Assembly: GCF_030209575.1 (NCBI RefSeq)
Contig: NZ_JARVRS010000001.1
Location: forward strand, 992,001-1,056,000
Direction: 5' to 3'
Source: Leifsonia sp. fls2-241-R2A-40a
GTDB taxonomy: Bacteria; Actinomycetota; Actinomycetes; Actinomycetales; Microbacteriaceae
DNA length: 64,000 nucleotides
Shown here: piece by piece, positions 36,069 to 39,281 of the stretch
How positions within the stretch are numbered: position 1 is the stretch's first letter
Layout: each line of letters begins with the position of its first letter
Program-made: the position numbers and the translations under genes
The notes under the pieces: generated by a model
What the model was told of the DNA's origin: nothing
Databases searched by the model: none
The model's input: the letters and a program-made list of their open reading frames with translations, nothing else

Positions 36069-36536
36069 TCAGCGCTTGGCGCGGAAGAAGTTGAGCAGCA
36101 CGTCGCCGCACTCCTCCGCGAGCACGCCCGCGAACACTTCGACGCGGTGATGCAGCCGCCGGTCGCGCAGCACGTCGTAGACCGAGCCGGCGGCGCCGGC
36201 CTTCTCGTCCCACGCGCCGAACACGACGGTCGGGACGCGCGCGGCCAGCACCGCGCCCGCGCACATGACGCACGGCTCGAGCGTGACGACGAGCGTGCAT
36301 CCTTCGAGGTGCCAGTCCTCGCGCGACGCCGCCGCCTCCTGCAGGGCGAGCACCTCGGCGTGCGCCGTCGGGTCGTGGCGCAGTTCGCGCTCGTTCCGGC
36401 CGGTGCCGATGACCTCGCCGTTCTCGTCCACGACGATGGCGGCGACGGGCACGTCGCCCGTGTCGAAGGCGAGCCGCGCGTCCGCCAGGGCGCGACGCAT
36501 CCACTGCTCGTAGGCGGCGGGCACGGTGAGGCTCAC
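36069..36536 (-). CDS. tadA: tRNA-specific adenosine deaminase
   Basis: 155-residue zinc deaminase that makes inosine at the wobble position of tRNA-Arg(ACG). Zinc ligands H59, C89 and C92 and proton shuttle E61 are visible in [11 protein letters not shown] and [24 protein letters not shown] near 125-138 is typical of TadA. It is divergent from upp across 50 bases, an arrangement common in actinobacteria. Confidence 0.93.
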
Positions 36537-36586
36537 GGCGGGACCTCCGGGGATCGCGTCGGGGATGTTCGGCTAGCCTTGAGCCT

Positions 36587-37219
36587 ATGCGAGTGCACGT
36601 TGCGGACCACCCACTCATCACCCACAAGCTGACGGTGCTCCGCGACAAGCGGACCCCGTCGCCGGTGTTCCGCCAGCTGACCGAGGAGCTCGTCACACTG
36701 CTCGCCTACGAGGCGACGCGCGGCGTCCGTGTCGAGCCGGTCGAGATCGAGACGCCGGTCACCACGACGATGGGTGTCGCGCTCAGCGAGCCGCGTCCGC
36801 TGGTCGTCCCCATCCTGCGCGCCGGGCTCGGGATGCTCGAGGGCATGGTGCGCCTGATGCCCACGGCCGAGGTCGGGTTCCTCGGCATGGTCCGCAACGA
36901 GGAGACCCTCGAGCCGACCACTTATGCGGAGCGCCTTCCGATGGACCTGTCGGACCGGCAGTGCTTCGTGCTCGACCCGATGCTCGCGACCGGCGGGTCG
37001 CTCGGTGCCGCCATCGAGTTCCTGTTCGCACGCAACGCGGTGGACGTGACGGCCATCTGCCTGCTCGCCGCACCCGAGGGCCTGGAGGCGCTGGAGAAGG
37101 CGACAGAAGGCCGCAACGTGACGATCGTCCTGGGCGCGCTCGACGAGCGCCTGAACGAGAACGGCTACATCGTCCCGGGTCTCGGCGACGCCGGAGACCG
37201 CCTCTACGGCACCGTCTAG
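36587..37219 (+). CDS. upp: Uracil phosphoribosyltransferase
   Basis: 210-residue pyrimidine-salvage enzyme making UMP from uracil and PRPP. The PRPP loop is [18 protein letters not shown] near residue 126-143, and the uracil-binding C-terminus [16 protein letters not shown] is complete. [10 protein letters not shown] near 80 is conserved. The ATG follows TAGCCT by 7 bases (leaderless). Confidence 0.96.
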
Positions 37220-37244
37220 CACCGCCGCAACATTGCGTAATGAT

Positions 37245-37274
37245 TTGACACGTCGAGTCATCGTCGGTTTTACT
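37245..37274 (+). promoter_or_regulatory. Strong promoter before the Cys-rich leader ORF
   Basis: A consensus TTGACA -35 (37245-37250) is followed after 18 bases by TTTACT (37269-37274). The leader ATG at 37282 comes 7 bases after this -10, so the transcript probably starts at or within a base or two of the start codon. Confidence 0.65.
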
Positions 37275-37281
37275 AACGAGC

Positions 37282-37386
37282 ATGACTGACAACTCGCGTA
37301 CCCTGACCTCCTTCGAGGCCCCTGGGGATGCCGGCATGATGATGCCCGGCCGCGACTCGGTCATGTGTTGCCGAAAGTGTCGCTGA
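37282..37386 (+). CDS. Leaderless 34-residue leader peptide ending in a Cys cluster
   Basis: A 34-codon frame MTDNSRTLTSFEAPGDAGMM then MPGRDSVMCCRKCR, ending 212 bases before the winged-helix regulator gene. Three Cys codons fall in the last six sense codons. A consensus promoter places the start codon at the 5' end of the mRNA. A 13-base palindrome (37447-37459) and a small GGCCC/GGGCC hairpin (37485-37502) follow. It could be an attenuation leader sensing cysteine or Cys-tRNA, as described for mycobacterial Cys-rich uORFs, or a small metal-binding peptide. No family recognised. Confidence 0.55.
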   Translation: MTDNSRTLTSFEAPGDAGMMMPGRDSVMCCRKCR

Positions 37387-37598
37387 TCTGACGACCCTTC
37401 GCCGAACAGCACCCCACCGACGCCATCCCGTCGTGATCGGGCGCATGTTCCCCGGGAACGCCACACTCACGCTCCCGCGCACCCGGCCCGCTCTCTAGGG
37501 CCACAACACAACACTTCCCGCAGAATCCCTCCTCTGCCGTACCCGCGGAGGCTTCAGCACAGGGATGCGGCGCATCATCACTTAAGGACTCGATTCCC

Positions 37599-38354
37599 AT
37601 GTCTCTGGCCACCGTCGACACCGCCTTCACCCGCACCTCCGCCGTCTCGCCCGTCAGCCCCGTCCGCGCCGCAGCGCCGACGCCGGCCGCAACCGCTCCC
37701 GCTCCCGCCGCCGAGGCCGCTCCTCGCATCCGCGCCGTTCCCGAGGGAACCGAGGCCCGCGGCTTCGTCCTCTACGTCGGCATCGACGAGGCGAAGGCCG
37801 CTGAAGCCGGCACCGACCTCGGCCGCATCGTGGAGGCGCTGAAGCGCCTCACCGCGGAGCTGGCCCCCGCGGCGGAGACCTACGCCGCCGTCGCCCTGGC
37901 CCCGGCCGGCTCCGGCGGACGGGACGTGGATGTGGTCCGTCTCGCCCTGCAGGACCCGGCGGCCATCGCGAAGCACCGGCACGCCGCCACGGTCGACGAA
38001 GACGAGGACCGTGCGGCCTCCGGCGTCGTCGTCGACATCTCGCGCAAGCGGCTCGTGCTCGACAACCAGACCGTCGCGCTCACGTACAAGGAGTTCGAGC
38101 TGCTGCAGTACCTGGTGCTGCGCGAGGGCCGCACGATCGAGCGCTCCGAGTTGATCAGCTCGCTGTGGAGCGCCGCCGACGAGGACGAGATCCCGAACGA
38201 GCGCACCATCGACGTGCACGTCCGCCGCCTGCGCGCGAAGCTCGCCCGCTACGAGGACATCGTGCGGACGGTGCGCGGCGTCGGCTACCGCTTCGACCGC
38301 CACGCGGACGTCTCGATCCGCTACGCGAGCGCCCCCTCCCCCGACCTGTTCTAG
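37599..38354 (+). CDS. Winged-helix (OmpR-type) regulator without receiver domain
   Basis: 251-residue protein. Residues about 20-45 are an Ala/Pro-rich linker, 50-130 an unassigned alpha/beta domain (GFVLYVGIDEAKAAEAGTDL onward), and 145-240 an OmpR/PhoB-type winged helix (VALTYKEFELLQYLVLREGR, then NERTIDVHVRRLRAKL and VRGVGYRF). No phospho-acceptor receiver pattern is visible, so control is likely by ligand, redox or expression level. The ATG has AAGGA about 11 bases upstream. A 212-base leader and Cys-rich ORF precede it. A long hairpin follows. Confidence 0.85.
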   Translation: MSLATVDTAFTRTSAVSPVSPVRAAAPTPAATAPAPAAEAAPRIRAVPEGTEARGFVLYVGIDEAKAAEAGTDLGRIVEALKRLTAELAPAAETYAAVALAPAGSGGRDVDVVRLALQDPAAIAKHRHAATVDEDEDRAASGVVVDISRKRLVLDNQTVALTYKEFELLQYLVLREGRTIERSELISSLWSAADEDEIPNERTIDVHVRRLRAKLARYEDIVRTVRGVGYRFDRHADVSIRYASAPSPDLF

Positions 38355-38378
38355 CCGCCGAGCACTAGCCCCCGAGCA
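38351..38378. repeat. 14-base tandem repeat across the regulator stop codon
   Basis: CTAGCCGCCGAGCA (38351-38364) is directly followed by CTAGCCCCCGAGCA (38365-38378), one mismatch. The first copy contains the regulator's TAG stop; the second begins the left arm of the long hairpin. Confidence 0.7.
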
Positions 38379-38438
38379 CAGGAAAAACGGTCACGTTTCA
38401 CGCCGAAACGCGACCGTTTTCCTGTGCTCGGGGGCTAG
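38365..38438. terminator. Very long CTAG-bounded bidirectional hairpin
   Basis: Arms of 35 and 34 bases, 38365-38399 and 38405-38438, pair almost perfectly (one bulged A, one mismatch) around a 5-base loop. Both ends are CTAG. The stem contains AAAA/TTTT, so either strand offers a GC-rich stem beside T residues. It lies between convergent genes and probably terminates both. Confidence 0.8.
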
Positions 38439-38451
38439 GACCGGGCTGGGG

Positions 38452-39281
38452 TCAGGCGGAGCGCTGGTAGACGCGGAAGGCGCTGGTCGCCCAGGCCGCC
38501 ATCACGACGGCCAGCGCGGCCAGCAGTCCCGCGTGCAGCCACAGGGTCGCCCAGTCGGGGTGCGCGCTCAGCGCCTGGCGCCCGACGATCACCGCCCACT
38601 CGAACGGGTTGTATGCCGAGACGTTCTGCACCCACTCCGGCGACAGCTTCGTGTTCATGATGGCCGAGCTGAGGAACATCAGCGGCAGCGTCAGCAGCTG
38701 CGAGATGCCGATCAGCGCGGTCTGCTCGCGGGCCAGCAGCGCGACCGCGTTCGACAGCGAGCAGAACACCGCGGTGAGCAGCACGACCCCCAGCAGCAAC
38801 AGCAGGATGCCGACCACTCCGCCGTCGAAGCGGGCACCCGCCCAGAGTGCGATCCCCACGACGACGAGCGACTGCACGACGGCGAGGATCGACTGGTACA
38901 CGAGCGTGGACACGATCATCGCCGCACGGTTCGTGGGCGACGTGAGGAACCGGTCCATCACCCCACGGTCCATGTCCTGGATGTACACGGTGCCCGACCA
39001 CGCGCTCCCGAACAGCGCGAGCATCATCACGACACCCGGCGTCAGGTACTCGAGATAGGTCTGACCCGCGGCGCCGAAGCCGGGGATGTTGATCACCGAC
39101 TTGAACAGTTCGCCGAAGAGCAGCAACCAGATGATCGGCTGGACGAGGTTCATCACCAGGAACACGGGCAGGCGCCAGGCTGCGCGCAGCTGACGACCGG
39201 TCAGTAGCAGCGTGTGCGTGAGGAAGGTCGGGCCGCTCCGGCGGAGCGACGGCGACGTGGACGGAGTGAGGACTGCGGCGG

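Follow-up and report, generated by a model that had tools for sequence, protein, structure and literature searches.

A leaderless upstream open reading frame (uORF) of 34 codons precedes an orphan winged-helix regulator in Leifsonia and in most of the Microbacteriaceae genera tested. It may well form part of a cis-acting attenuator, in which the position of the ribosome on the uORF would control the start site of the regulator (probability roughly 0.5). The suggestion of a new attenuation leader came from a preliminary description of the window, by which is meant the whole 64,000-nucleotide stretch of DNA that was analysed. It is well supported by leaderless geometry, by conservation both family-wide and at the nucleotide level, and by complementarity to the region of the regulator's ribosome-binding site (RBS).

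The uORF, its promoter and the regulator

The uORF occupies positions 37282 to 37386 of the forward strand, as indicated by the ORF call, cross-genus conservation and constraint at 4-fold degenerate sites. Its product is MTDNSRTLTSFEAPGDAGMMMPGRDSVMCCRKCR, with the C-terminus SVMCCRKCR (the asterisk marks the stop codon). As the preliminary description had it, this Cys-Cys-x-x-Cys end stands ahead of a winged-helix regulator, all three Cys codons falling within the last six codons and 212 untranslated nucleotides separating the stop codon from the regulator ATG at 37599.

A promoter had also been proposed at the ATG of the uORF, and its boxes are present on the forward strand: a -35 box TTGACA (37245 to 37250) and, after an 18-nt spacer, a -10-like box TTTACT (37269 to 37274) that ends 7 nt 5' of the ATG. 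The automatic sigma-70 scan of the window did not list this promoter because position 2 of the -10 box is not A. Of the 95 loci compared, 90 have a TTGAC-like box ahead of the uORF ATG, and in 85 of those 90, from about 30 genera, it starts 36 or 37 nt 5' of the ATG. The -10-like position reads TTTACT, CATAAT or GATAGT in other genera, and the sequence between the two boxes is not conserved across genera. Because the spacing from TTGAC to ATG is held at 36 or 37 nt in 85 of 90 loci, the transcript very probably begins at or very near the ATG and would thus be leaderless. Dyads of the form TGTCA-N5-TGACA or TTGACAC-N5-GTCA surround the -35 box in several genera (positions 37245 to 37263 of the window; loci of g100 and g106 such as L035 and L077), and could be a candidate operator, perhaps for autoregulation.

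The regulator gene (37599 to 38354, forward strand) encodes a PhoB/GlnR-type protein of 251 amino acids whose only Pfam domain is Trans_reg_C, at residues 157 to 232. Its Shine-Dalgarno sequence, AAGGA (37584 to 37588), is conserved in the Leifsonia alignment. No receiver domain was found in the protein, as Pfam shows Trans_reg_C only and the N-terminal region is too short, in keeping with the earlier assignment to OmpR-type regulators that lack this domain. Alignment defines a conserved N-terminal region of about 67-84 amino acids (37758 to 38009), which is modeled as four helices with moderate confidence (mean pLDDT 77). The closest solved structures are GlnR DNA-binding domains, and the best 50 Foldseek matches of the full regulator model are all to winged-helix domains. 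The DNA-binding domain is shared with GlnR, itself an orphan OmpR/PhoB-type regulator, at about 41-43% identity in structural alignment, whereas the receiver-like N-terminal domain of GlnR is replaced by the short conserved region.

The genes upp and tadA lie upstream of the regulator, the genes downstream vary, and the neighbourhood gives no functional hint; a gene-neighbourhood survey found no sulfur gene adjoining the regulator. A long near-perfect inverted repeat lies between the regulator and a convergent ABC-2 transporter gene (38364 to 38439) and is likely a bidirectional terminator. The Rfam matches in the window are miRNA models on this repeat, 3' of the regulator and not in the leader, and were discarded as false.

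Conservation across genomes

In loci retrieved by the regulator alone, the uORF stands ahead of the same regulator gene in all 28 of 28 Leifsonia genomes, and it is also present in two other genera whose loci were retrieved only by the regulator. A degenerate MCCRMCR* pattern matches 110 of 199 Microbacteriaceae genomes, and the reversed control pattern gave few matches. Thirty further loci were retrieved by the regulator, most of them picked for absence of the strict nucleotide pattern, and 24 of these have a uORF with either the usual end or a variant derived from it. Five of the 24 belong to a second family of the order, where the matches are weaker and the ends include MRCCRMHA*, RCRRMHA* and GRRMPR*. 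A DNA-pattern scan of the whole collection placed the uORF before the regulator in Microbacterium, Agromyces, Cryobacterium, Herbiconiux and Humibacter, and likewise in Naasia, Mycetocola, Labedella, Compostimonas and Subtercola. This distribution places the uORF in most of the Microbacteriaceae genera examined and indicates that it is no product of chance. Alignment across other Microbacteriaceae, which the preliminary description had proposed, shows the peptide end conserved in most genera tested.

A class-wide exact search for TGYCGAATGTGYMGNTRR gave few matches outside Microbacteriaceae, mostly chance. Neither the Rfam RNA families nor the NCBIfam leader peptides include a plausible match to the uORF or its leader, and a literature search found no published description of the leader.

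Codons rather than cysteines are conserved

The uORF consensus is MTxNAxxLTSxEAxGTAGMMMPxxxVMCCRMC[RA]*, with a near-invariant core, CGA-AUG (Arg-Met), at the fourth and third codons before the stop. CGA encodes the core Arg in 36 of 37 genera, a count that includes some loci selected by a pattern that fixes CGA. By contrast, CGA accounts for 2.7% of the Arg codons when the regulator genes at these loci are counted. CGA is also found in all 23 loci that were recovered only via a protein-level search for the Arg-Met end. Differences at 4-fold synonymous sites amount to 4.7% in the uORF versus 33% in the regulator gene in Leifsonia, and to 19% versus 37% and 17% versus 37% in two other genera. 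Since synonymous sites are constrained and CGA is kept, selection acts on the nucleotide sequence of the uORF and not on the peptide only.

The emphasis first placed on cysteine has to be revised: three Cys codons do close the ORF in the window, but Cys codons vary among genera, and it is CGA-AUG that forms the near-invariant core. Several genera have Arg, Asn, Ser, His, Gln or Pro codons in place of the Cys codons, giving ends such as RRRM, RNRM, CRMHA and CRMSA, with CGA-AUG and the synonymous sites retained. The window strain alone has AAG (Lys) three codons before the stop (37375 to 37377), a position held by Met (AUG) in every other genus; this may be a real change or a sequencing error. 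In a small-genome member of the Microbacteriaceae the uORF ends in MMPCSMCMCMCMCR*, with alternating Met and Cys codons and without CGA (locus L132, uORF end at about 1376 on the minus strand of the locus).

RNA structure and complementarity to the leader

The uORF contains a hairpin, H1, of sequence GCCGGC-AUGAUGAU-GCCCGGC (37330 to 37350, forward strand), which is built from A-G-M-M-M-(A/P)-G codons and carries AUGAUGAU in its loop. When the same peptides are recoded synonymously, the resulting RNA is less stable than H1 (for H1, mean z -0.69; below zero in 28 of 35 genera; Wilcoxon p=4e-4). Compensating base changes are seen in the H1 stem: in Leifsonia UA takes the place of CG, and in the alignment of another genus four sequences have AU instead of GC. 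The stems of other genera include GCUGGC..GCCAGC, ACGGC..GCCGU and CAGGG..CCCUG.

Complementarity was assessed by taking each 7-mer within the 3'-terminal 66 nt of the uORF and counting the genera with an exact complement in the untranslated leader, with the expectation drawn from dinucleotide shuffles. Only two segments exceed the shuffles by a wide margin. For the AUGAUGAUG loop, complements occur in up to 9.6 of 36 genera versus 1.3 expected (z about 8); for GUCGAAUG(UG), close to the ORF end, they occur in about 5 genera versus 0.6 expected (z about 6-8). Both peaks coincide with the two conserved segments of the uORF. Segment A is the AUGAUGAUG loop, which encodes Met-Met-Met (37336 to 37344). 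Segment B, delimited by the constancy of CGA as well as by its complements, is the uORF end that encodes Met-Cys-Cys-Arg(CGA)-Lys-Cys in the window and reads AUGUGYUGYCGAAUGUG in relatives (37363 to 37379).

The putative partner of segment A, termed A' (CAUCAUCA, 37573 to 37580), lies directly 5' of the Shine-Dalgarno sequence; it is near-invariant in the Leifsonia alignment and is among the few conserved pieces of an otherwise diverging untranslated region. Thirteen genera have A', as CAUCAU(C), and 11 of them carry it in one of two places: at -20 to -26, immediately 5' of the Shine-Dalgarno sequence, or at -7/-4, where it touches the start codon. The whole window, 128 kb of strand, contains 15 copies of CATCATC, so the chance of a match in one 212-nt leader is about 2.5%. 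A candidate partner of segment B, termed B' (CAACACA, 37504 to 37510), is weak and is confined to some members of the genus. In some genera, then, uORF segments are complementary to the RBS region, as in a translational attenuator, and this enriched complementarity suggests that the uORF can pair with the leader. MMM and CGA-AUG are kept even in the roughly half of the genera without an exact A' or B'; therefore, pairing is not the whole reason for the conservation of the uORF.

In folding calculations with a ribosome-sized mask on MMM, the start region becomes more open in g106 (13 loci; 0.42 to 0.60), g48, g67 and g69. The mean effect over genera is small, with no clear change in RBS accessibility, as calculated by a program that does not model loop-to-leader pseudoknots, and Leifsonia itself shows no effect of the mask on RBS accessibility in these calculations. 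The consensus folds of two genera had suggested that the 5' end of the uORF pairs with the start of the regulator, but such pairing was not enriched across genera and was rejected. No intrinsic terminator was detected in positions 36500 to 38500 (0 sites), nor was a terminator with a U-run, of the trp, ilvB or whiB7 type, found in the leader.

Related uORFs before sulfur genes

Outside Microbacteriaceae, similar endings precede sulfur genes. In Cellulomonadaceae-type genomes, including Actinotalea solisilvae, a uORF of seven codons, MFCRMCR* or MYCRMCR*, is located about 120-180 nt before metY, the gene for O-acetylhomoserine sulfhydrylase (TIGR01326; loci L061, L062, L063, L064, L178 and L214). 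Codons 3-7 and the stop of this uORF are embedded in a 12-13 bp hairpin, UGCCGAAUGUGUCGC..GCGCACGUUCGGCA. The uORF is probably leaderless and looks like a minimal Cys/Met attenuator. Similarly, in another actinobacterial family a uORF ending in CRMCR*, with CGA or CGC, lies about 250-290 nt before a metN-type ATPase gene (L108, around 1217-1520 on the minus strand; L146, 1430-1765). The top NCBIfam match of this gene is TIGR02314, below the cut-off of that model, and a NIL domain is present.

Proposed mechanism and alternatives

In the proposed attenuator, transcription would start at the uORF ATG, and the AUGAUGAUG loop of H1 and the MCCRMC-coding end would pair with the region before the regulator, the loop mostly with the RBS. 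The uORF RNA would mask the regulator start, and a ribosome on the uORF would relieve or shift this masking: a ribosome that occupies the Met- and Cys-rich codons, or waits in line behind them, may block pairing of the segments and alter translation of the regulator. Because segments A and B are about 29 nt apart, close to one ribosome footprint, it can be speculated that a ribosome stalled at the Cys/Arg/Met end and another waiting behind it would together span both segments.

The cue, tentatively, would most likely be slowed decoding under a shortage of Met- or Cys-tRNA, and stalling would most likely open the start site of the regulator. Met codons are as prominent in the uORF as Cys codons, and both coincide with segments A and B; the alternating Met and Cys codons of the small-genome member also fit such a cue. 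By analogy, Met/Cys supply is a plausible signal, and it is the leading candidate because the same ending precedes sulfur genes outside Microbacteriaceae; Cys starvation is possible. The link of the uORF to sulfur is an indirect one, through the related uORFs before metY and the metN-type gene, and it speaks against an attenuator that the regulator is not itself a sulfur gene.

A more elaborate version of this mechanism is tentative. The leader would be a family-wide two-site sensor of ribosome position, in which the Met cluster and the Cys/CGA-Met cluster double as the RNA segments that mask the start. Shortage of either sulfur amino acid, or a queue of footprint length, would then induce an undescribed regulator of a sulfur or translation-stress regulon, and the CRMCR* module would have been reused before metY and the metN-type gene.

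A different and rather unlikely explanation is nascent-peptide arrest, in which the MCCRMC[RA]* end would stall the ribosome that makes it, possibly aided by a small ligand, and thereby set regulator expression; the signal need not be an amino acid. In TnaC- and SpeFL-type leaders a stalled ribosome sets downstream expression. The near-invariance of Arg-Met at codons four and three before the stop fits such an arrest, as does the recurrence of Cys-Arg-Met-Cys-Arg before metY and the metN-type gene, with CGA or CGC. However, a peptide alone requires neither CGA itself, in place of any Arg codon, in 36 of 37 genera nor the constraint on synonymous sites, and the window strain has Lys instead of Met.

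Still less likely is a general sensor of translation stress like that of whiB7/wblC, in which any slowing of ribosomes on the uORF, for example by antibiotics, would induce the regulator of a stress regulon. The controlled gene is indeed a transcription factor and not a biosynthetic gene, and a uORF with leader structures and pairing before a regulator is the whiB7 layout (PMC13236596). On the other hand, the gene is a different one, no intrinsic terminator was found in the leader, and the uORF is leaderless, biased toward Met and Cys codons and related to uORFs before sulfur genes. Finally, the metal- or thiol-sensing peptide of the preliminary description, a trans-acting small protein binding its ligand via Cys-Cys-x-x-Cys and Met residues, would account for the Met- and Cys-rich C-terminus kept in many genera, but it is very improbable given that several genera keep CGA-AUG but have Arg, Asn, Ser, His or Gln in place of Cys, that synonymous sites are constrained, and that the uORF was never seen away from the regulator except as a sulfur-gene leader.

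Comparison with Cys-responsive leaders

Mycobacterial attenuators with polycysteine leaderless small ORFs (Canestrari et al. 2020, doi 10.1111/mmi.14498) are described in PMC4633059 and PMC9094748. The Leifsonia leader shares with them a conserved leaderless short ORF, Cys codons near the stop and a place as the first gene of the transcript. It differs in preceding a single orphan transcription factor instead of a sulfur or cysteine gene, in having Cys codons that are not invariant, with Met codons and the CGA-AUG core dominating, and in the complementarity of the uORF RNA to the RBS. Because conservation does not extend to the Cys run itself and the target is a transcription factor, the leader is not classed with these attenuators. 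Cys leader peptides have also been predicted in Actinobacteria ahead of cys operons or cbs (Seliverstov et al. 2005, PMC1262725). They resemble the Microbacteriaceae uORF in having Cys codons near the stop and no obvious terminator, but the Microbacteriaceae uORF precedes a regulator, and the portions of that article consulted describe no such leaders.

Implications

The leader points to an undescribed regulator that is conserved across Microbacteriaceae; translation of the 34 codons of the leader probably sets how strongly this regulator is expressed. Confirmation would mean that control by Cys/Met-linked leaderless uORFs reaches beyond metabolic operons to a transcription factor, and would provide a clear case of joint selection on codon identity and RNA pairing. 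It would also open a way to the regulon of this large family of environmental and plant-associated bacteria.
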